Positions 9,622 to 33,787 of a stretch of 40,859 bases of DNA are shown one piece after another. Position numbers and translations under genes: made by a program. Positions within the stretch are counted from its first letter, which is position 1, and each line of letters starts with the position of its first letter. Source of the stretch: a virus; the IMG/VR virus record IMGVR_UViG_3300031576_000143, positions 1-40,859 of that record. One strand, written 5' to 3'. The notes under the pieces were generated by a model that had not been told where the DNA came from, searched no databases, and saw only the letters and a program-made list of their open reading frames with translations.

Positions 9622-10437
9622 GTGGCGAACGTCAAGCTCTACATGCGTAACGCGCTGACGTTGCCCGGCGTCACCCTCAAGAATGGTACCGGTGGCGGTG
9701 CTCCGGCCATTGAAGAGGATCCCGACTGGCCGCTGACACACAACTTCTCGGCTGACCGTGAAACCTACTGGCGCACTTCGGCGGCTCCTCCGAATCCGGT
9801 GAAGATCGACTTCGACCTCGGCAGCGCACAGTCGATCATCGCGGGCGGCATGCTGAAGATCCGCACCTACGGTGGGCTCACGAACGTGGTGCAGACCATC
9901 CGCTACATCAGCGGTGCCGGCGTATACGACCCGGCCGATGGTGCGTGGACGGACGCTGTATCGGGCGTATCGGCGAATGCGCACAACCATCTGGCTTACG
10001 ATCCGGGGACGTCGATTAGTGCCCGTTATTGGCGCTTCAGCCTTGCATCGGCGATAGCGTTTTCATGCAAGCTGTGGCTGGTGAAGGCCGCTGACTTCCT
10101 CGATCTGGGCAAGGACTGGAGCATTGGCACCGAGCAGGATGTTGAGCGGCTGCGCGAGGTGCTGGTAAGCCCGGCGGGGCTGGCATTCGCGTTCGAACCT
10201 GCCCAAGAGCGGGGCTCCACGATCTTTGGCGGAAAGTTTCTGCTGCGCGGGAAGAACCAAGCCCTGCGCGACATCCTGCGCGATCAGCTGACCACGATCG
10301 ACACGCGCTTTGTGATCCGTCTGGGCGACGGAACCCTGATCGAGACCTCGCTACCCGAGGGCGCCTTGGAGTGGGAGCGTGTCTGGGCGCCGCCCGAGGT
10401 GTTCAACCTCACGCTGCCGCTGGTGGAACATCCATGA
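9622..10437 (+). CDS. Tail-tip protein with discoidin-like domain, paralogue 1
   Basis: 271 residues from a GTG abutting the tape-measure stop. Residues 40-160 have the pattern of F5/8-type C (discoidin) galactose-binding domains: ETYWRTSAAPPNPVKIDFDLGSAQ near the start and ISARYWRFSL near the end. The C-terminal 100 residues resemble distal-tail proteins in general character (LGKDWSIGTEQDVERLREVL...). The next gene is a clear paralogue (WRTSAAPP, YWRFxxx...FSCKxWLV shared). The pair follows the tape measure, where the distal tail ring and adhesion proteins lie. A carbohydrate-contacting distal-tail role is inferred. Confidence 0.65.
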   Translation: MANVKLYMRNALTLPGVTLKNGTGGGAPAIEEDPDWPLTHNFSADRETYWRTSAAPPNPVKIDFDLGSAQSIIAGGMLKIRTYGGLTNVVQTIRYISGAGVYDPADGAWTDAVSGVSANAHNHLAYDPGTSISARYWRFSLASAIAFSCKLWLVKAADFLDLGKDWSIGTEQDVERLREVLVSPAGLAFAFEPAQERGSTIFGGKFLLRGKNQALRDILRDQLTTIDTRFVIRLGDGTLIETSLPEGALEWERVWAPPEVFNLTLPLVEHP

Positions 10438-11252
10438 GCGTGAGGGCGCGGCTGCTGATTCGGAACGGTCTCTACGGGATCACCGGTGTCGGAGGCCAGG
10501 CTGCGCCGGTGGTCGGGAACTACCTCGGGGCGCCCTATGCCGCGGTCGATGAAGATTCGGAGCGGCCGCTGAGCAATGTGCTGATCCCGAGCCGCTATCG
10601 CTTCTGGCGCACCTCCGCGGCCCCGCCCGGGACGGTCTACCTCGACCTCGTAGGCCAGACGACGTTGAACGTCCGGTCCGCCGGGGTCGCGATGGTGAGG
10701 AAATACCGCGGCACCGGTGGATTCACTGGGGTCAACGTGTACTCCGGCAGCTCGGCGCCGGCGTCGACTCTTCAGCTCACCCTCGCGGTCGACCCGGCAA
10801 CGCAGAACGACGTGTTCGCCAACTTGCCGGCTAGCACCACGGCGACCTACTGGCGCTTCGAGTTCACCGGCGTAGTCGGCCAGTTCTCTTGCAAGCCGTG
10901 GCTGGTCCGCAGTCTCGACACGCAGACGCTCACCGAGGGCGGGGCCGGTGCGATAGAGACGTGGCGCCGGGTGCGCGAGAAGGAGCGCGAGGGGTTCCTC
11001 GGCGGCAAGCTCTTCAATGATCTCGGGGTCGGCGTCGGCCAGCGGATCCGAGAGTTCCGTGTGCCGTTCCCGGTGCTGTCGTCGGTGCAGGTAGGTCTCA
11101 TCCGGAGTACGCAGAGAGGGAACTTCATCTACCAACATCACGACGAAAACTACTACGAGTGCCGCCACGGCGATCCCAAGGTGCGCTGGCAGCAGCATCC
11201 CGGGACAACCGTCAGGCTCGCTACCGAAATCAATCTGATTCAGGTGCCCTGA
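10434..11252 (+). CDS. Tail-tip protein with discoidin-like domain, paralogue 2
   Basis: 272 residues from the ATG at 10434, which overlaps the preceding stop. The upstream in-frame codons belong to the previous gene's region and are ignored. It shares FWRTSAAPPGTVYLDL, a second YWRFEFTG and FSCKPWLVRSL with its neighbour, indicating tandem duplication and divergence of a discoidin-like module. The C-terminus (YYECRHGDPKVRWQQHPGTTVRLATEINLIQVP) differs from that of the first copy, so the two may have distinct contacts in the tail tip. Confidence 0.65.
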   Translation: MSVRARLLIRNGLYGITGVGGQAAPVVGNYLGAPYAAVDEDSERPLSNVLIPSRYRFWRTSAAPPGTVYLDLVGQTTLNVRSAGVAMVRKYRGTGGFTGVNVYSGSSAPASTLQLTLAVDPATQNDVFANLPASTTATYWRFEFTGVVGQFSCKPWLVRSLDTQTLTEGGAGAIETWRRVREKEREGFLGGKLFNDLGVGVGQRIREFRVPFPVLSSVQVGLIRSTQRGNFIYQHHDENYYECRHGDPKVRWQQHPGTTVRLATEINLIQVP

Positions 11253-23241: not shown

Positions 23242-23381
23242 ACATCCGCGATTCCGAGAAGGCATGGTCGGCGCTGCTCATGGTGCTCCTGCTCTGGGTG
23301 CTCGTCCTATTCTGCCAAGCCACGTGCATGGGCATCGCCGAGTACCGCGTCGCGCACGAGAATGCGGCGGTGGCGCGATGA
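23238..23381 (+). CDS. Tiny single-pass membrane protein
   Basis: 47 residues from ATG 23238, overlapping both neighbours by four bases. A single transmembrane stretch, ALLMVLLLWVLVLFCQATCMG, is followed by a short polar tail. The coupling to the annealing-protein and nuclease genes suggests co-expression. No function is recognised. Confidence 0.6.
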   Translation: MNIRDSEKAWSALLMVLLLWVLVLFCQATCMGIAEYRVAHENAAVAR

Positions 23382-23572
23382 CCAAGCTCGACAAGCCGCT
23401 GCGCCGCATCGTCGATGTCGGACACGGACACCAAATCGTCGTCGAGCTGGTCCCGGCCGACGAAGGGATTCAGGCGCACATCAAGTTCCGTCTGCCGGGT
23501 GCCCAGCGATCGTTCTTCACGAAGTACATCGAGCCGCCGCCATCCGAGCCGGCGAAGGGCGGTGCGCGATGA
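23378..23572 (+). CDS. Small protein, unknown
   Basis: 64 residues from ATG 23378, overlapping the tiny membrane gene before and the nuclease gene after. A beta-rich body (RIVDVGHGHQIVVELVPADEGIQAHIKFRLP) ends in a proline-rich tail. The longer in-frame extension upstream belongs to the previous gene. No recognised family. Confidence 0.55.
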   Translation: MTKLDKPLRRIVDVGHGHQIVVELVPADEGIQAHIKFRLPGAQRSFFTKYIEPPPSEPAKGGAR

Positions 23573-26500
23573 AGATCCTCCAGCTCGCCGACCCCCACCT
23601 CGATGGATCGACCCAGGAGAACGTCGAGCATGCGATGGCGCAGATCCTCGAGCTCGCCCGAATCGAGAAGCCGGACCTGATCGTAAATTGCGGGGACCTC
23701 GCGATGAAGCGCGGCTATCTCGCCCCATGGGTCGCCGAGGCGCTCCGGATCTGGCACGTCCAGCTCGCTGCGATCGCGCCGGTGGTGGTGGTCGCCGGGA
23801 ACCACGACCTCACGCACGATTGGGAGCGTGCCGGCACGCTGCGCGGTGCGCTCTCGTTCTCCGAGTCATCGGCGAGAGTCTTCCTCGCGGACCGCCCGAG
23901 CCTGTTTCAGTTCCCCGGGCTCCAACTTCAGGTCGCATGCCTGCCGTACCCATCGAAGTACGCCCTGCTCGCGGCACGGAACGGGAACCTCAAGGCGGCC
24001 GACGTCAACCTCGAGATGGGCGCATTGCTGACCGACGTCGTGCGTGGTCTGGCGGGGACGGCGACAGGCCCCCAGACCGGGTTCCGCAACATCCTCGTCT
24101 ACCACGGCACGATCGGCGGCGCCGTCACCGGCACTGAGCAGCGGATGACGACGGAGATCGACATCGTCCTGCCCGAGCCCGAGATCCCGGAGATCTTCGA
24201 GGCTGTGCTGTGTGGGCACATCCACAAGCCGCAGACGATCGGCCGCGCGGTCTACGCTGGCTCGCCCTGCCCGCTCGACTTCGGCGAAGCGAACCACCCC
24301 CACGGGGTCATGATCTGGGAGAGCGAGCCGGCGCCGCTATGGAAGATCCGCTTCGTCGAGCTCGAGCCGAAGCATCGTCTCATCACGATCGACCTTCGCG
24401 AGACCAACGACCCGGTTCACGGCCTGATGAGCGGGCCGGCCGGCGACATGAGGGACTTCGGGGGCGCCCGCATTCGCATCCTGCTGCGCCTGCCACGCGG
24501 AACACACATCGAGCCCGTCGCCGCAAGGCTGGAGGCGCTCGCCAAGGAACGGGGAGCTTTCGAATGCCGCCTCCAGGTCGAACGCGATACGGATGATCGC
24601 TCGGCCGCGCCTGGGCAGCTGCGCGCGGAGGCGGCACTCGATCCCCTTCTCGAGGCCTACGCCGAACGGACCCCGGAGATCGCGAGCCGGCTGCCGGCGC
24701 TCAAGGCTCTTGGTGCCGAGATCGACGGTAATCTCCCGGCCGCGGCGCGCGCGGTCGAGCGCTACGCCGACTACCAGCTGATCGCGCTGCGCTGGTCGAA
24801 CTGGAAGAGCTTCGCCGAGGCGCAGGGCGAGATCCAGGTCGAGGGGCTCGGTCGCCTGGTCTGTATCGAGGGCGAGAACGCCTCGGGCAAGTCTAACCTG
24901 ATGGAGGTCGAGGCCTTCGCCCTGTGGGGCAAGCTCCCGCGCGGGCGCCAGCCGATTGGCGAGCTGGTGCGCCTCGGTGCGCACGAGGCCTGGGTCGAGG
25001 CGGAGTTCGGCGCCGGCGGAGTCCACTATCGCGCGCGGCGCTCGATCACGGTCAACGCCCGTGGGGACGGGAAGGGCCTGCTGGTGCTCGAGCGAGACCT
25101 GCGCGGGGCATGGGAGCCGGCCAACGCCGGGGACGCCCGCGAGACCCAAGCGGCGATCGAGGAGCTGGTCGGGCCGTTCGATCTCTACTTGGCGACCCGC
25201 TTCGCCTCTCAGGGCGACATCGACCGCCTACTCGAGATGACCGGCGCCGATCTCAAGGACACGATTCAGGCGGCACTGGGCACCGGGATCTTCGAGCACC
25301 GCGAGGCGGCCGCCAAGGCTCGCGCCTCCGAGTACGATCGCCGGGCCGCGCAGCTCCACGGCCAGGCGGACGCCCTCACCGAGCACGCCGGCGAGATTGG
25401 AACCTGGCAGGCGGCGATCGAGGAGCACGAGGCGGTCGCCAGCGCCGCGGCCGCGGAAAAGGTCGAGGCCTCGCGCGCGCTCCAGGCCGCGAGCGACGAG
25501 CTCGAGGGCAAGCGCCGGGAACTGGCGGAGGCCTCCGAACATGCCACCCAGCGCCAGGGCATCGAGGGCCGCCTTCAGCAGGTGCGTCGGAACCTGGATG
25601 CCGCCAGCGCCGCGCGGGAGGACCTCCAGGCCCGGATCGACAACGGGGCCATGGCTGCGGCCGCGCTCGAGGAGCACAAAGTCCGGGCGACCGAGCTCGG
25701 AGATCTGGCGGTCGAGGAGGCCCGCTACCTGGCCCACATCGGCGAGGCGGCCCAGCTCCGGACCCGGCTGGGGGATCGACTGGAGCTGGAGCTCCGAGAC
25801 ATCGCAAGGCGATCGCGGGAGCGCGAGTCTGTCTTGCGTGAGCAGAGCCAGCTGAAGGAGCACTTCGAGCGAGAGCGGAAGACGGCGTCGATGATTGGCA
25901 CGACGCCCTTCGGTGAAGCCTGCGCGGAGCGGGCCTGTAGTCTGCTCCGCCTCCCGATTGCGGCGCGCGATGCGATGGTGACCCTGGAGGCCAAACACGC
26001 CGAGAGCGTCGGGCGGCTCGCCGCTCTCGAAAAGATGCAGCTCGAGGAGGCCTCGGTCGCCGGCGCAGAGATCGAGGAGCTCGAGATCGAGATCGCCGGC
26101 TACAAGTCCGACCTCGAGGCAAACGGCGGCCTGGCCGAGAAGATCATCGCACTCCGGGCCCAGGTCACCGGCTTCGATCAGGGGGCGAACCACCGCATCA
26201 TCCAGGCCGGAGAGCGGGCGATCGGCCTGCTCGAAGCGCTCGACCGTGAGCAGACGCAGCTGAACGAGCAGGGCATGGTGCTCGCACTCGAGCTCGAGCA
26301 GCTCCCCGCGGCTGACATCCTCGCAGCGAAGGTGTCCGAGCAGCGTGCCGCGATCACGCTCGATAAGGTGGTGGCCACCAACAAGGCCGCCGGCGATCGC
26401 GAGGCAGCCGCCCGGGAGAAGCTGGCCGCGGTCAAGGCGCGGCTCGAAGCCGCGACCGAGGCGCGCGAGAAGGCGCTCCGGATCGCCACCGAGGCCGACT

Positions 26501-27030
26501 CCGAGTTCGAGCAGGGGCAGCTGGCCGCGATCTATGCCCGCGCCATGGGGCGGGATGGCGTGCCCTACCTGATGCTCGAGCGGGCGCTCCCGGCGATCGA
26601 GGACCACGCCAACCGCTTCCTCGCCTACGACGACTTGAAGCTCGAGATCGAGCCGGCGCGGGACCTGCGGACCGGGGAGCAGCGCAGCGAGGTCTACGCC
26701 CGCTATCGAGACGCCTTCGGGCTCCACGGCCTGGTGGCCGCCTCGGGCTTCCAGCGGGTCATGCTGGGCTACGCGCTGCGCGCCGCACTCGCCCAGGTGC
26801 AGGCCGAGGCCCACGGGCTGCGCGTCTCCCACTGGATCGCCGACGAGGGCTGGTCGGCCGCGTCCGAGGGAAATCTACTCGGCTGCCAGCAGATGCTCCG
26901 GCGCCTCGGCGAGCAGTTCGAGCGGGTGTTCTTCGTCAGCCACCAGAGCGAGATCCGCGAGGTCGCCGACACGCGGCTGCGCGTGGTGCCGAATCACCGG
27001 GAGGGATCGCGCCTCGAGGTGGTGACATGA
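23569..27030 (+). CDS. Fused SbcD-SbcC (Mre11-Rad50-like) nuclease-ATPase
   Basis: 1153 residues from ATG 23569. Residues 1-260 are an Mre11/SbcD metallophosphoesterase: D8-x-H10, G42-D43, G77-N78-H79-D80, H179 in YHG and GHIH at 216-219 supply the two-metal site. Residues 400-1153 are Rad50/SbcC: Walker A GENASGKS (435-442), long coiled coils, hook cysteines C785 and C790, a degenerate signature ASGFQR (1058-1063) in place of LSGGE, Walker B IADE (D1092, E1093) and H-loop His1125. The complex normally trims DNA ends and hairpins and uses two subunits. Here both are one chain. The hook is C-x4-C rather than C-x2-C. Expected role: processing phage DNA ends or replication intermediates, or degrading host DNA. 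Confidence 0.9.
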   Translation: MKILQLADPHLDGSTQENVEHAMAQILELARIEKPDLIVNCGDLAMKRGYLAPWVAEALRIWHVQLAAIAPVVVVAGNHDLTHDWERAGTLRGALSFSESSARVFLADRPSLFQFPGLQLQVACLPYPSKYALLAARNGNLKAADVNLEMGALLTDVVRGLAGTATGPQTGFRNILVYHGTIGGAVTGTEQRMTTEIDIVLPEPEIPEIFEAVLCGHIHKPQTIGRAVYAGSPCPLDFGEANHPHGVMIWESEPAPLWKIRFVELEPKHRLITIDLRETNDPVHGLMSGPAGDMRDFGGARIRILLRLPRGTHIEPVAARLEALAKERGAFECRLQVERDTDDRSAAPGQLRAEAALDPLLEAYAERTPEIASRLPALKALGAEIDGNLPAAARAVERYADYQLIALRWSNWKSFAEAQGEIQVEGLGRLVCIEGENASGKSNLMEVEAFALWGKLPRGRQPIGELVRLGAHEAWVEAEFGAGGVHYRARRSITVNARGDGKGLLVLERDLRGAWEPANAGDARETQAAIEELVGPFDLYLATRFASQGDIDRLLEMTGADLKDTIQAALGTGIFEHREAAAKARASEYDRRAAQLHGQADALTEHAGEIGTWQAAIEEHEAVASAAAAEKVEASRALQAASDELEGKRRELAEASEHATQRQGIEGRLQQVRRNLDAASAAREDLQARIDNGAMAAAALEEHKVRATELGDLAVEEARYLAHIGEAAQLRTRLGDRLELELRDIARRSRERESVLREQSQLKEHFERERKTASMIGTTPFGEACAERACSLLRLPIAARDAMVTLEAKHAESVGRLAALEKMQLEEASVAGAEIEELEIEIAGYKSDLEANGGLAEKIIALRAQVTGFDQGANHRIIQAGERAIGLLEALDREQTQLNEQGMVLALELEQLPAADILAAKVSEQRAAITLDKVVATNKAAGDREAAAREKLAAVKARLEAATEAREKALRIATEADSEFEQGQLAAIYARAMGRDGVPYLMLERALPAIEDHANRFLAYDDLKLEIEPARDLRTGEQRSEVYARYRDAFGLHGLVAASGFQRVMLGYALRAALAQVQAEAHGLRVSHWIADEGWSAASEGNLLGCQQMLRRLGEQFERVFFVSHQSEIREVADTRLRVVPNHREGSRLEVVT

Positions 27031-28044: not shown

Positions 28045-29652
28045 ATGACTCCCACCGTCCAGCAGATCGCGCTCGAGGAGATCCGGCCCTCGAAGACCAA
28101 TCCCCGCCGGGTCCTCAACGGCCCGGCATTCGACGAGCTCATCGCCAGCGTCAAGGCGCACGGCATCCTGCAGCCGGTCCTGGTGCGCCCCAACGGCAAG
28201 GGCTACGAGCTGGTCGCCGGACACCGCCGGCTCGCGGCCGCGGCGAAGGCCGAGCTCGCGCTGATCCCGGCCCTGGTGCGCGAGCTCACCGACACCCAGG
28301 CGCTCGAGATCCAGCTGATCGAGAACCTCGAGCGCTCGGACCTCCACCCGCTCGAGGAGGCCCAGGGCTACCGCCAGCTGATGGTGGTGGCCAAGTACGA
28401 CGTCGCCCGCATCGCCGAGAAGATCGGACGCTCGGTCAAGTACGTCTATGACCGGGTGAAGCTGCTCCAGCTGACCAAGGAGGCGCAGAAGCTCTTCCTC
28501 GAGGACCGGATCACCGCCGGGCACGCGATCCTGCTCGCGCGGCTCAAGGCTGCCGATCAGAAGCGCGCGATGGACACCAAGGAGGCGCGCAACAGCTACG
28601 GCCGACACTCCGCTCTCTGGCAGTCCGAGCGAACGCTCTTCGATCTGGACGACGAGACCTACGAGAAGCGTCTCGAGACCGATCCGTTCATGAGACTCAA
28701 GGTCCGCACGGTCCGCGAGCTGCAGGGCTGGATCGACGAGCATGTCCGGTTCGACCCTAAGGAGCCGGATCCGATCCTGTTCCCCGAGACCAAGGCGGAG
28801 CTCGAGGGCGCGAAGAAGATCATTCCCATCACCCACTCGAACTACATCCCCGAGGAGGCCCGCGAGGGTCGCACCTTCGGTCCGCGTTCATGGGCACGCG
28901 CGGACGGAGAGCAGGGCTCGAAGACGTGCGAGTACTCGGTCACCGGGTTCGTCGCTGTCGGGCGCGACCGCGGCGAAGCGTTCGCGGTCTGCGTCAACAA
29001 GGACAAGTGCGCCGTGCACTGGCCCGCCCAGGTGAAGGCACGCAAGCGGCGGGCGGCGGGACAGAAGGCTGCCCCCGCGAAGCCGGCAGCGCCGCCGAAG
29101 CGCGACAAATTGGAGGTCGAGCGCAAGAAGCGCGACGAGGTGCACGCGCGCTGGAACAAGGCGCTGCCCGCGATCCTCGAGGCGGTCGCCGAGAGGGTGA
29201 AGAAGGCGAGCCCGGCCCGCGGCAGCGCGCTCTGTAACCTCCTGGTCGACTTCCTCAAGCCACGCGAAGGCAAGGCGCCGGCAAAGTACGTCGAGCTCGG
29301 CAGCCACGCCGACGACGTCGTGCGCTTCGCCGCTTGGTTGGTGATCTACGACCAGGCCCACCAATGGCTCGCCTGGGAGCACTTCCCGAAGCTCGCCGAC
29401 AAGCTCGGCGTCGACGTGCGCAAGATCCTCAAGGCCGAGGCGCCGGTCGAGAAGCCCGCGAAGGGCAAGCCCACGCCCGGCACCTGCTCCGAGTGCGGAT
29501 GCACCGAAGACAACGCCTGCATCAGCGCCAAGACCGGCGAGACCTGCGGCTGGGCGAACAAGCAGAAGACCCTCTGCTCCTTCTGCACGGTCGAAAAGCC
29601 CGCCAAATCCGGATCCGGAAAGACGCGGGCGAAGGAGGGGAGGAAGAAGTGA
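28045..29652 (+). CDS. ParB-like DNA-binding protein with C-terminal zinc finger
   Basis: 535 residues. Residues 1-140 have the ParB/Noc N-domain: IRPSKTNPRR (14-22), VAGHRRLAAA (57-67, the box II GxRR motif of CTP-binding ParBs), ENLERSDLHPLEEA (93-106, compare ENxQRxxLNPxEEA) and an HTH at 118-140 (VARIAEKIGRSVKYVYDRVKLL). The middle is a charged linker. The C-terminus has CSECGCTEDNAC...GETCGWAN...CSFC, a four-to-six-cysteine finger seen at the ends of several phage ParB-like proteins. No partner ParA gene is visible. Possible roles: nucleoid or plasmid-like segregation, origin handling, or regulation. The nearby palindromic repeats (32934-33244) could be its binding sites. Confidence 0.85.
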   Translation: MTPTVQQIALEEIRPSKTNPRRVLNGPAFDELIASVKAHGILQPVLVRPNGKGYELVAGHRRLAAAAKAELALIPALVRELTDTQALEIQLIENLERSDLHPLEEAQGYRQLMVVAKYDVARIAEKIGRSVKYVYDRVKLLQLTKEAQKLFLEDRITAGHAILLARLKAADQKRAMDTKEARNSYGRHSALWQSERTLFDLDDETYEKRLETDPFMRLKVRTVRELQGWIDEHVRFDPKEPDPILFPETKAELEGAKKIIPITHSNYIPEEAREGRTFGPRSWARADGEQGSKTCEYSVTGFVAVGRDRGEAFAVCVNKDKCAVHWPAQVKARKRRAAGQKAAPAKPAAPPKRDKLEVERKKRDEVHARWNKALPAILEAVAERVKKASPARGSALCNLLVDFLKPREGKAPAKYVELGSHADDVVRFAAWLVIYDQAHQWLAWEHFPKLADKLGVDVRKILKAEAPVEKPAKGKPTPGTCSECGCTEDNACISAKTGETCGWANKQKTLCSFCTVEKPAKSGSGKTRAKEGRKK

Positions 29653-29813
29653 CGGTCCGCGAGCTGATCGAGAAGCTCCAGGAGGTCGCGAAGGACCGGG
29701 ATCACCTTCCCGTCTATTTCGCCGATCGCGCCATCGAAGGCGAGGTCAAGATAGAGTCCTCCAAGTTCGCCGGTGGTCAGATGATTCTCTCGCCGCGAGT
29801 GACGGTGGCATGA
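29649..29813 (+). CDS. Small acidic protein, unknown
   Basis: 54 residues from GTG 29649, overlapping the ParB-like stop by four bases and the next start by four. Sequence MTVRELIEKLQEVAKDRDHLPVYFAD suggests helix-strand architecture of the kind seen in the small 'RELIEKLQ..dpd.pV.f.d' phage proteins. Translational coupling implies co-expression with ParB and the HerA-like ATPase. Function unknown. Confidence 0.6.
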   Translation: MTVRELIEKLQEVAKDRDHLPVYFADRAIEGEVKIESSKFAGGQMILSPRVTVA

Positions 29814-31498
29814 TGCTCCACCTCGGCGCCGGCCTCGCGCTGCCCGCGGATGCGATCACGCAGACCTTCGGCATCCTCGCGGTGCGCGGCGCCGGCAAGA
29901 GCAACCTCGCCGCGGTCATGGCCGAGGAGATGCACAAGGCTCGGCTGCCGTTCGTCGTGGTCGATCCGGTCGGCGCCTGGTGGGGGCTGCGCAGCTCAGC
30001 CGACGGCACCGCTCCGGGGCTCGAGATCCTGATCTTCGGCGGCTGCCACGGTGACGTGCCGCTCGAGGAGACCGGCGGCCAGGTGCTCGCCGACCTGGTG
30101 GTGGACGATCGGGTCAGCTGCGTGCTCGACGTCTCGGAGCTCTCGGAGGGGGCGAAGACGCGCTTCCTGATCGACTTCGGCGAGCGGCTCTACCGGCGCA
30201 ACACCGAGCCGCTCCACCTGTTCTTGGAAGAGGCCGACGACTACGCCCCGCAGCGGCCGTTCCGCGAGCAGGCCCGACTGCTGCGGGTGTGGGAGAACGT
30301 GGTGCGCCGCGGCCGCTCGCGCGGTCTCGGGATCACTCTCATCACCCAGCGATCCGCGGCGCTCAACAAGAACGTCTTGACCCAGGTCGAGACGCTGTTC
30401 GTGCTGCGCACCACGTCGCCCCAGGACAAGAAGGCGATCGAGGCCTGGATCCAGCACCACGGACAGAGCCGCGAGATCCTGGCGACGCTCGACAAGCTCG
30501 GCGCCGGCGAGGCCTGGGTCTGGTCTCCGCAGTGGCTCAAGACGATGAAGCGGGTCCAGGTCCGCCGGCGCGCGACGTTCGACTCGGGAGCGACGCCGAA
30601 GAACGTTCGGGGCGCGCGGCCGGCGGCAACTCTGGCCGACGTCGACCTCGGCAAGGTCCGTGCCCGCATGGCCGCCACCATCGAGCGGGCGAAGGAGCAG
30701 GACCCGAAGGAGCTGCGCCGGCGGATCGCTGAGCTCGAGCGCCAGGTTAAGGCGGCGAGTGACACCAACCCGGTGCCACCGAAGATCGAGCGGGTCGAGG
30801 TGCCGGTGGTCAGCTGGGAGAAACTGGACCTGCTCGGCATGGAACTGCAGGGCATACGCAAGGCCATCGACGTTGCCCAGCAGACCATTGCCGCCTGGTC
30901 CGCGCTCCACAAGCACCGGCTGGGAGCGGCGCAAAATATTACGAGAAATATTCCGGCGCCGGCTACGTTGATCCGCAGTCCTGTGCCGGTCGCACCGCGC
31001 CAGGCTGTCGCCCATCGGACGCCGGCGTCGGGAAACGGACAGGACAGGCTCGGCAGCGGGGAGCTCAAGGTCCTCACCGCGATCGCTCAGCACCCCGAAG
31101 GCGTTACGCGCGAGCAACTGACCCAGCTGACTGGATACCGCCGCTCCACACGCGACACCTACATCCAGCGCCTGGGCCAGCGCGGGCTCCTGGAGGTTCT
31201 GGGGGCCGCGATCGTCGTGACCCAGGCCGGCGTCGACGCGCTCGGCGACTTCGAGCCGCTGCCGACAGGTGATCAGCTCCGCGCCCACTGGCTTGAGCGC
31301 CTGCCCAAAGGGGAGCGGGAGATCCTCGAGGCGGTCACGCGCGCCTACCCCAAGGCGGTCGATCGCGATCGCATAACGGAAGCCACCGGGTACGCGCGCT
31401 CGACCCGGGACACATATCTGCAGCGCCTCAGCGCCCGCCGCCTGGTCGAGACGGTCGGACGCGGCGAGGTGCGGGCGCGGGCAGAGCTGTTCTCATGA
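29810..31498 (+). CDS. HerA/FtsK-like ATPase with tandem C-terminal HTH
   Basis: 562 residues. Walker A AVRGAGKS (24-31) and Walker B LFLEEAD (137-143) flank an ATPase core. RRGRSRGLGITLITQR at about 166-181 matches the HerA/VirD4 arginine-finger and 'tQrp' region. HerA-type ATPases form hexameric dsDNA translocases that work with nucleases such as NurA or Mre11. Two nearly identical winged-helix-like repeats close the protein (TGYRRSTRDTYIQRL at about 441 and TGYARSTRDTYLQRL at about 526). They could direct it to specific DNA. Its coupling with ParB-like and SbcCD genes suggests DNA translocation or processing at phage origins or ends. Confidence 0.8.
   Translation: MMLHLGAGLALPADAITQTFGILAVRGAGKSNLAAVMAEEMHKARLPFVVVDPVGAWWGLRSSADGTAPGLEILIFGGCHGDVPLEETGGQVLADLVVDDRVSCVLDVSELSEGAKTRFLIDFGERLYRRNTEPLHLFLEEADDYAPQRPFREQARLLRVWENVVRRGRSRGLGITLITQRSAALNKNVLTQVETLFVLRTTSPQDKKAIEAWIQHHGQSREILATLDKLGAGEAWVWSPQWLKTMKRVQVRRRATFDSGATPKNVRGARPAATLADVDLGKVRARMAATIERAKEQDPKELRRRIAELERQVKAASDTNPVPPKIERVEVPVVSWEKLDLLGMELQGIRKAIDVAQQTIAAWSALHKHRLGAAQNITRNIPAPATLIRSPVPVAPRQAVAHRTPASGNGQDRLGSGELKVLTAIAQHPEGVTREQLTQLTGYRRSTRDTYIQRLGQRGLLEVLGAAIVVTQAGVDALGDFEPLPTGDQLRAHWLERLPKGEREILEAVTRAYPKAVDRDRITEATGYARSTRDTYLQRLSARRLVETVGRGEVRARAELFS
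30933..30952. promoter_or_regulatory. A+T-rich palindrome pair inside the ATPase gene
   Basis: Two AAATATT heptamers (30934-30940 and 30946-30952), each containing the palindrome AATATT, are separated by ACGAG within an otherwise GC-rich gene. It encodes QNITRN in a linker of the ATPase, where codon choice is free. It could be a melting element, an internal promoter fragment or a protein-binding site. Confidence 0.35.
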
Positions 31499-32598: not shown

Positions 32599-32822
32599 AG
32601 CCGATCGGCCTGCTCGAGCTCGACAAGCTGTTCACCAAGCCGCACGACCCGGTGATGTACCAGGGCGCCGGAGCGATCATGCCGGCCGGGATCCGGCTGC
32701 GCCCGCTGTGCCATGGCCAGGCCGACTTCAGGGTGGTCTACGAACGCCCTGGGGGTTGGCTCCTGCTCGCCTGTACCACCTGCGGCATGATCGTCTGCCG
32801 CATCGCCGTGGCGAGGCTCTGA
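32595..32822 (+). CDS. Small Cys-containing protein, unknown
   Basis: 75 residues from a GTG at 32595 overlapping the nuclease stop. The sequence (KPIGLLELDKLF...PVMYQGAGAIMPAGIRLRPLCHGQADFRVVYERPGGWLLLACTTCGMIVCRIAVARL) has CTTC and a further C that could form a half zinc ribbon. It overlaps the next gene by one base. Unknown function. Confidence 0.55.
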   Translation: MKPIGLLELDKLFTKPHDPVMYQGAGAIMPAGIRLRPLCHGQADFRVVYERPGGWLLLACTTCGMIVCRIAVARL

Positions 32823-33787
32823 TGCCCTGGTACGCGATCGACACCGACCTCGAGGGGAACGACAAGTTCCACGCCTTCGTCACCCGGCGGGGGTGGTCGA
32901 CGGATAGGGGGCTGGCGTTCTTCTACCGCTTCTGGCGGACCGTCCGCCGGCATGCTCCGAGGGGGGTGATCACCCACTGGACCGACGCCTACCTGGGGGC
33001 CCAAATCGGGCTCGCCCGGCCGTCCGGAATCCTGGCCGATCTGACCGAGTTGCGCTTCGTCGACCGGGTCGGAAACGAGCTTGTCGTCCATGAATGGCTC
33101 GAGCGGAACGGAAAGTGGATAAAAGACACTCGATGGAGCAAGGGCGGAAGCGAAACAGAAGCACCACCGAACCGCAACGACTTACCCGGAAACGTCCGCC
33201 CTAGAAAGGCGGACCGTCCTCCTTTTTCAGGCGGACCGTCCGCCCCCTCGCGCGCGCGCGCGGAGCAGGAGCAGGAGCAGAGCAGGAGCAGAGCAGAGCA
33301 GGAACCAGAATCTAGATCTATCGAACCAGCTAGCCAGCATCAGACGCCTGTACCAGTCCCGGAGGAACCCCCGCTGGCTGGCTCGGCGCGCAAGCGCTCA
33401 CACCCCGAACCGGACCCAGAGTCCGACCCCCGCATGCGCCAGGTGCTCGACCAACTCCAGGCTCAGTACCCCGACCAGGACGTCGACCTGACCTGGGCCA
33501 AGGTCATCGCCCGGCACCGCGAGAAACCCTTCACCGGCGACCTCGAGTTCGTGCTCCGTGCCTGGGTGGCCCAGGCCCACACCCTAGGCACCGAGCGACG
33601 TGCCAACCCCGAGGCCTCCGCCGAACGCAGCGCCGAAGTCCTAGACCGCCTCGAGCAGGACCGCCAGCGGGCCGACGCTGATCGCATCGCCCATCCCGGC
33701 GGCGCTGCCCAAGCACTCGGCCAGGTGCAGCAGCTCATCGACGGAACCACGCTCGCTATGCCAACCACCCGGACGCGGGGACCGTGA
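32822..33787 (+). CDS. Probable replication initiator / replisome organiser
   Basis: 321 residues from ATG 32822, where the preceding TGA shares its last base. Residues 1-105 (MPWYAIDTDLEGNDKFHAFVTRRGWSTDRGLAFFYRFWRTVRRHAP...VTELRFVDRVGNELVVHEW) resemble the winged-helix N-domain of phage replisome organisers. A low-complexity Arg/Glu/Gln linker (residues about 140-190, including EQEQEQSRSRAEQEPESRS) follows. The C-terminal 110 residues (MRQVLDQLQAQYPDQDVDLTWAKVIARHREKPF) look like a DnaD-type module. The gene carries three full copies and one half copy of a 15-bp palindrome, as lambda's O gene carries its origin. It probably initiates theta replication using host enzymes. Confidence 0.6.
   Translation: MPWYAIDTDLEGNDKFHAFVTRRGWSTDRGLAFFYRFWRTVRRHAPRGVITHWTDAYLGAQIGLARPSGILADLTELRFVDRVGNELVVHEWLERNGKWIKDTRWSKGGSETEAPPNRNDLPGNVRPRKADRPPFSGGPSAPSRARAEQEQEQSRSRAEQEPESRSIEPASQHQTPVPVPEEPPLAGSARKRSHPEPDPESDPRMRQVLDQLQAQYPDQDVDLTWAKVIARHREKPFTGDLEFVLRAWVAQAHTLGTERRANPEASAERSAEVLDRLEQDRQRADADRIAHPGGAAQALGQVQQLIDGTTLAMPTTRTRGP
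32934..32948. repeat. 15-bp palindrome, copy 1
   Basis: GGCGGACCGTCCGCC, a perfect palindrome around a central C (32941), in the initiator gene. It is read in the codon frame W-R-T-V-R-R, different from the two other copies, so the amino-acid sequence is not what keeps it conserved. Confidence 0.8.
33179..33244. repeat. 22-bp-phased palindromic iterons (candidate origin)
   Basis: Three adjacent 22-base units end in the same element. At 33186-33200 the right half is intact (GTCCGCC). At 33208-33222 it is GGCGGACCGTCCTCC (one mismatch). At 33230-33244 it is the perfect palindrome GGCGGACCGTCCGCC. Centres lie at 33193, 33215 and 33237, i.e. exactly 22 bases apart (two helical turns). The last two are read in different frames (A-D-R-P-P and G-G-P-S-A), which shows DNA-level selection. 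This fits origin iterons or ParB/parS-like sites. A (CG)7 tract and an AGCAGG microsatellite follow. Confidence 0.75.
33249..33302. repeat. (CG)7 tract followed by AGCAGG/AGAGC microsatellite
   Basis: Seven CG dinucleotides (33249-33262) lead into about 40 bases of AGCAGG and AGCAG units. They encode RARAEQEQEQSRSRAEQEP, a disordered linker. Such tracts slip easily during replication, so linker length may vary between isolates. The (CG)7 tract can form Z-DNA in supercoiled DNA. Confidence 0.7.

Follow-up and report, generated by a model that had tools for sequence, protein, structure and literature searches.

Initiator gene

The 40,859-bp stretch of viral DNA analysed here, referred to as the window, carries on its plus strand, at 32822-33787, a gene encoding a 321-aa protein, P0001, which is identified as a replication initiator by a profile match and an AlphaFold model. 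The match is to phrog_9474, 'replication initiation protein' (E=1.5e-4 over aa 1-175), and the family assignment rests on it. In the model, a winged-helix domain (aa 8-108, encoded at 32843-33145), presumed to be the DNA binder and with pLDDT of ~94-97 across aa 11-90, is followed by a disordered linker (aa ~110-200) and a helical C-terminal region (aa 203-311, encoded at 33428-33754), which lies in the position of the DnaD/DnaB_2-type domain of relatives. The top row of a VIA-align comparison for the N-terminal domain was 4pta, an initiator from an MDR plasmid (Z 4.6 and rmsd 3.3 over 82 residues), a weak match to which many winged-helix proteins score close; a replisome organizer and a primosomal protein are among the matches of P0001 in viral structures. 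Comparison of the model with the PDB by Foldseek gave no match at E<1, and a PDB sequence search gave spurious matches only.

At the sequence level P0001 is distant from its relatives, with ~13-19% identity over the full alignment. Direct searches found no close relatives in viral_contigs and none that were significant in phages, and a further query, A1, returned nothing from genome_contigs and only an already-known record from viral_contigs. P0001 has no Pfam match above the cut-off, with no RepA_N (PF06970) listed up to E 0.1, and it matches the lambda O-like family phrog_345 at only E=0.086. No helicase, loader or primase was recognised among the window ORFs tested. Elsewhere in the window, a single 1222-aa ORF at 23362-27030 (+) fuses an SbcD-like phosphoesterase with an SbcC-like ATPase; SbcD and SbcC are usually two separate proteins.

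Iterons and short repeats in the linker-coding DNA

The middle of the initiator gene contains an array of palindromic iterons at 33193-33245 (+), corresponding to nt 372-424 of the 966-nt gene and to aa ~125-141 of the disordered linker. It consists of a half site, GTCCGCC, at 33194-33200, a one-mismatch copy, GGCGGACCGTCCTCC, at 33208-33222, and an exact copy, GGCGGACCGTCCGCC, at 33230-33244, all on the plus strand and with 22 bp between successive centres, so that the array holds only two full iterons plus the half site. The other exact copy of the 15-mer in the window, at 32934-32948 (+), lies ~270 bp upstream, outside the phased array and within the part of the gene that codes for the winged-helix domain. 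The 40,859 bp contain no further 15-mer within one mismatch of GGCGGACCGTCCGCC, the array region was the sole cluster detected when the window was scanned for tandem inverted half-sites, and Tandem Repeats Finder independently reported a period of 22 at 33193-33245. The three full copies are translated in three different frames, as W-R-T-V-R, A-D-R-P and G-G-P-S-A. The positions of the palindromes, the 22-base spacing of their centres and their reading in three frames, all of which had been described in an earlier note on this DNA, are thus confirmed in the sequence.

The same note had argued that selection on the protein is insufficient to explain the palindromes, and this was borne out by a recoding control in which the protein was held fixed and codons were drawn from the gene's own usage in 20,000 synonymous recodings. 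Because a 22-bp-spaced pair of matching 7-1-7 palindromes arose in only 7/20,000 recodings, the iteron array is not explained by protein coding. The lag-22 identity was matched in 77/20,000 recodings. Counting perfect palindromes in the recoded gene was a weaker test (at least two copies in 29/3000 and at least three in 2/3000), presumably because low-complexity codons can yield repeats.

A second array at the DNA level, missed in the earlier note, lies directly 3' of the iterons, where seven AGCAG units occur at 33263-33301 (+), spanning all three frames and encoding the peptide EQEQEQ-SRSR-AEQ. Seven copies were reached in 0/20,000 synonymous recodings, and Tandem Repeats Finder reported periods of 5, 6 and 11 at this AGCAG/GAGCAG array, which is proposed to be an opening or helicase-loading zone. 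Together the two arrays fall at aa ~125-160, a stretch of low confidence and predicted disorder in the AlphaFold model. Immediately 5' of the iterons, the DNA at 33101-33200 (+) is locally richer in A+T (43% vs 33% on average for the window), a value that falls between the 95th (40) and 99th (44) percentiles of 100-bp windows, and is strongly biased toward A over T on the coding strand. The GC skew that the earlier note had named as a check on the locus dips only slightly at 32-34 kb and is uninformative.

Phased arrays across the initiator family

A scan for GGACCGTCC-N9-13-GGACCGTCC, which took in periods of 18-22, with 22 at the upper end instead of the middle, gave 17 matches, mostly unrelated GC-rich repeats, and only those in the records L006 and L017 were useful. 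The L006 initiator matches phrog_9474 (E=3e-7) and shares 24% identity with P0001 in the N-terminal domain; its linker DNA contains five GGACNGTCC palindromes on an 11-bp grid, with the same half-site as the window, and the ORF after it resembles an AAA+ helicase loader. L006 led to known phages of Synechococcus, Microcystis, Faecalibacterium, Roseburia, Paenibacillus and Myxococcus. Matches to phrog_9474 were also found in L061 (E=8.6e-84) and in L060 (E=1.9e-21), a Synechococcus phage in which GGACGTCC occurs twice, 22 bp apart, and there was none in the terminase relatives L055 and L056. In several annotated relatives the next gene encodes a DnaC-type loader, a DnaB-type helicase or a gp38-like protein, and several family members have a C-terminal DnaB_2 domain (PF07261), as found in DnaD and DnaB. 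The reverse strand of L017 carries a GGACNGTCC/GGACAATCC array on an 11-bp grid within an ORF for a phrog_1408 initiator, and the 11-bp rule may therefore extend beyond phrog_9474.

With the N-terminal domain as sole bait, 79 more loci were gathered from bacterial genomes and viral contigs; because this bait excludes the linker, the added loci are independent of the feature that was tested. The family occurs in phages and prophages with links to Clostridia, Synergistetes, cyanobacteria, Myxococcus and actinomycetes. The test covered 64 non-redundant members, only 2/64 of which (the window and L006) had been found through the tested feature; a few distant matches (e.g. L145, L146, L149 and L150) are possibly not genuine initiators. 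In each member, a constant 180-nt segment following the domain was scored for repeats at lags 4-45 and compared with synonymous recodings. Linker DNA showed a pronounced excess of identity at lag 11 (mean z 2.06, t 11.4), lag 22 (1.63, t 8.2), lag 10 (1.75, t 7.0) and lag 5 (1.17, t 5.2), none of which is divisible by three; the remaining lags were below 0.8. No such peaks were seen in control DNA, where the lag-11 z was 0.02 in the N-terminal domain and 0.17 further downstream in the C-terminal region. A z of at least 2.5 at lag 11 or 22 was reached in 32/64 linkers, leaving about half of the family below this threshold, vs 2/64 and 5/61 of the controls, and palindromes were present at 2.19x the recoded expectation in linkers vs 1.20x and 1.07x elsewhere.

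The two elements also have a consistent arrangement. In all 21 members with both signals at z>=2, the iterons lie 5' of the 5-bp repeats, and A exceeds T on the coding strand of the short-repeat zone in 30/30. The letters vary across the family while this layout persists, both in the iterons (GGACGTCC, GGACCGTCC, CGGACGACC, GTCACGCG and TTCGCGA) and in the short repeats (AGAGT/AGACC, ACCTA, CCCAA and AGCAG). The window shows both traits, an 11/22-bp-phased linker array (lag-22 z 3.5) and strand-asymmetric short repeats 3' of it, and its AGCAG array is the counterpart of the family's 5-bp arrays; its lag-5 z alone is not raised because the AGCAG unit is of mixed 5/6-bp length. Extra upstream iteron copies like that at 32934 do not characterise the family, with 2 observed where 1.2 would be expected. 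The earlier note had looked to relatives for conservation of the 15-mer and of its spacing: the 11/22-bp phasing is kept and the letters have changed, and the relatives have lost the amino acids while keeping palindromic phased arrays, the reverse of the pattern that the note had set against an origin.

In five members (L089, L109, L112, L113 and L140), the initiator linker contains an insertion of the RDGDYCRYCGKKVNWDDRKG type that resembles an HNH endonuclease. The insertion occupies the place of the origin array in others, and the 11-bp signal is absent in those members. These insertions may reflect invasion of the origin by a homing-endonuclease-like element.

A perfect half-site scan picks out the lambda iterons only weakly and is therefore no general origin finder. 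Two further loci contain repeats of a related kind. In L038, a palindromic array, TAACCCGGC...GCCGGGTTA, is found at 10038-10182 in the gene directly after HerA, and the next ORF resembles a DnaC-type loader; as the array-bearing protein has no PHROG match, it perhaps represents an unrecognised initiator family. In L049, two long imperfect repeats with ACCTGCC/GGCAGGT palindromes, at 1562-1647 inside an O-like initiator gene, are a candidate for another in-gene origin.

Alternative explanations for the repeats

Two proteins of the window could own the palindromes, and the earlier note had left open whether they are an origin or a parS-like site. A ParB-like protein with ParB_N and HTH_ParB domains (PF02195, E=2.3e-25; PF17762, E=1.5e-15) is encoded at 28045-29652 (+), 3.5 kb upstream of the iterons, and ParB-type proteins often bind palindromes, so the sites might be centromeres for the phage's own protein. 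The half of the earlier claim that concerned ParB failed when inheritance was compared, whereas the origin half was strongly supported by the location in an initiator gene and by the phased arrays of relatives. The sister phage L021 encodes a ParB that is 57% identical over 478 aa and a HerA that is 66% identical, yet its 46 kb contain no 15-mer within one mismatch; its initiator differs (phrog_1408), and the gene for it holds all three GTACGTAC palindromes of the L021 record, followed by short repeats of L021's own. Conversely, L006 has GGACNGTCC arrays and no ParB_N match in its record, which may be a fragment. The 15-mer was found in 0/36 records searched, mostly HerA relatives that may likewise be fragments, and the window contains no Spo0J-type parS. 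Because the site was not inherited with ParB in the relatives compared, the parS reading was rejected and is regarded as highly improbable; the motif appears to travel with the initiator, on the evidence of records whose possible incompleteness makes absence less than absolute.

Nor is it likely that the repeats serve as an operator or an RNA element instead of an origin, whether for autoregulation of the initiator, transcription termination or formation of mRNA hairpins. Such a role would fit the ability of initiators to repress their own genes, the early position of the outlying copy (32934) in the initiator gene and the short stems that the iteron palindromes could form. Against it, no terminator-like or sigma-70-like site was found near the array, on which ground a terminator or promoter was rejected, and what the family has in common is helical phasing of 11/22 bp in mid-gene followed by strand-asymmetric short repeats, with the letters left free. 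A purely regulatory element is accordingly considered very unlikely, while autoregulation could coexist with origin function. Least probable of all, to the point of being nearly dismissed, is that the arrays are neutral products of tandem duplication or slippage, or by-products of a low-complexity peptide. Disordered linkers tolerate repeats and peptides of the EQEQ type are low in complexity, but repetition at the protein level is removed by the synonymous recoding controls, on which this explanation was rejected. Moreover, comparison of the two 22-bp units gives 13/14 matching positions in the palindrome arms and 2/7 in the 7-nt spacers, and the array is therefore not simply a recent tandem duplication. 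Periods of 11/22 and 5/10, rather than random ones, dominate across the family, and this pair of periods turns up repeatedly, without a change of order, in divergent phage and prophage genes linked to several bacterial groups.

The ParB-like gene adjoins that of a HerA-like ATPase with C-terminal winged-helix repeats, the two together spanning 28045-31498 (+), and relatives of the HerA-like protein are encoded by 34 viral contigs. After one of them, in L053 (80% identical over the first 320 residues), 26 copies of TGCGAC lie on one strand of C-rich DNA at 9818-10886, with spacings mostly of 28, 33, 38 or 43 bp (33 +/- multiples of 5), a possible large origin or centromere array.

Relation to known in-gene origins

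Placement of an origin within the gene of its own initiator has precedents in plasmids and phages. In plasmid pSK41, the Rep boxes have a central position in rep, and the origin codes for a dispensable linker (aa 121-199 of 319) between a winged-helix domain (~1-120) and a C-terminal domain (200-319) of this RepA_N protein (PMC5703833). P0001 has a near-identical plan and length (aa 8-108, ~110-200 and 203-311 of 321), with its sites likewise central in the gene and its proposed origin DNA coding for the interdomain linker. It differs in that pSK41 sites have a central A-tract, whereas the window iterons are GC-rich palindromes on a 22-bp grid; in having a separate 5/6-bp strand-asymmetric track after the iterons; and, unlike RepA_N initiators, in having no RepA_N Pfam match.

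In lambda, the iterons are found in the middle of O together with an AT-rich tract, the adjoining zone that unwinding also requires (PMC7466680). The lambda iterons (J02459) are at nt 349-433 of 900 in O, the same relative place as the window array, and in both cases inverted-repeat iterons occupy the middle of an initiator gene. Start-to-start distances between the lambda iterons are 20, 24 and 23 bp, with no 11/22-bp grid, the neighbouring zone is AT-rich in lambda vs a short tandem repeat in the window, and P0001 is not recognisably homologous to lambda O. In SPP1, oriL is within gene 38, with initiator-bound repeats beside an unwinding element, and a second origin, oriR, lies ~13 kb away (PMC6316719). 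The window resembles gp38/oriL in carrying repeats within the initiator gene next to a proposed opening zone, while SPP1, unlike our reading of the window, has the additional oriR. The proposed window origin would work like those of lambda, pSK41 and SPP1, and by sequence P0001 is not recognised as belonging to either the lambda O or the RepA_N family.

A possible parallel for the short-repeat track is provided by DnaD, which binds a strand-specific single-stranded element at oriC (PMC10201434), and the DnaB_2 domain of several family members is shared with DnaD/DnaB. As a hypothesis only, this element suggests how the track might work; by eye, the DnaD 5'-TnnT-3' rule does not fit all of the short-repeat types (e.g. 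ACCTA).

A proposed origin and its significance

The region at 33193-33301 is very probably the replication origin of the phage, situated in the linker-coding part of its own initiator gene. What was established for the arrays is their position, phasing, independence from coding, order, strand bias and co-inheritance with the initiator; these comparisons strongly support their assignment as an origin with initiator iterons, from which we infer binding, melting and helicase recruitment. Dimers of the winged-helix domain would occupy the palindromic iterons along the same helical face, 22 bp being two turns, and the resulting initiator oligomer would strain the adjoining DNA, comprising the strand-asymmetric AGCAG array and the AT-richer flank. 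The strands would then open at the strained tract, and the C-terminal region may recruit a helicase loader or the host helicase.

More tentatively, and with somewhat less than even confidence, the family may define a class of phage initiators with a two-part origin beneath a disordered linker, in which 11-bp-phased palindromic iterons are followed by a T-poor track of 5-6 bp units, recognised in single-stranded form, that sets the helicase-loading strand. Were spacing, order and strand held in this way while the letters of both parts drift along with the initiator, peptide repeats such as EQEQ, RVDQSRVDQ and NPTQPNPTEP would be by-products of DNA function. No description of 11-bp-phased iterons with 5-bp repeats in phage initiator genes was found in the open-licence literature, and the two-part layout seems to be undescribed, absence from the literature being no proof of novelty.

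Most phages are known mainly from metagenomes, and their origins are unmapped. With a layout rule independent of the letters, an origin and its initiator could be read together from sequence, and the initiator-site pairs assembled in this manner are ready for testing the co-evolution of DNA-binding specificity. Low-complexity peptides in phage replication proteins may find an explanation as the coding shadows of DNA elements, and the strand-asymmetric track offers a testable proposal for the place and strand at which the helicase is loaded.
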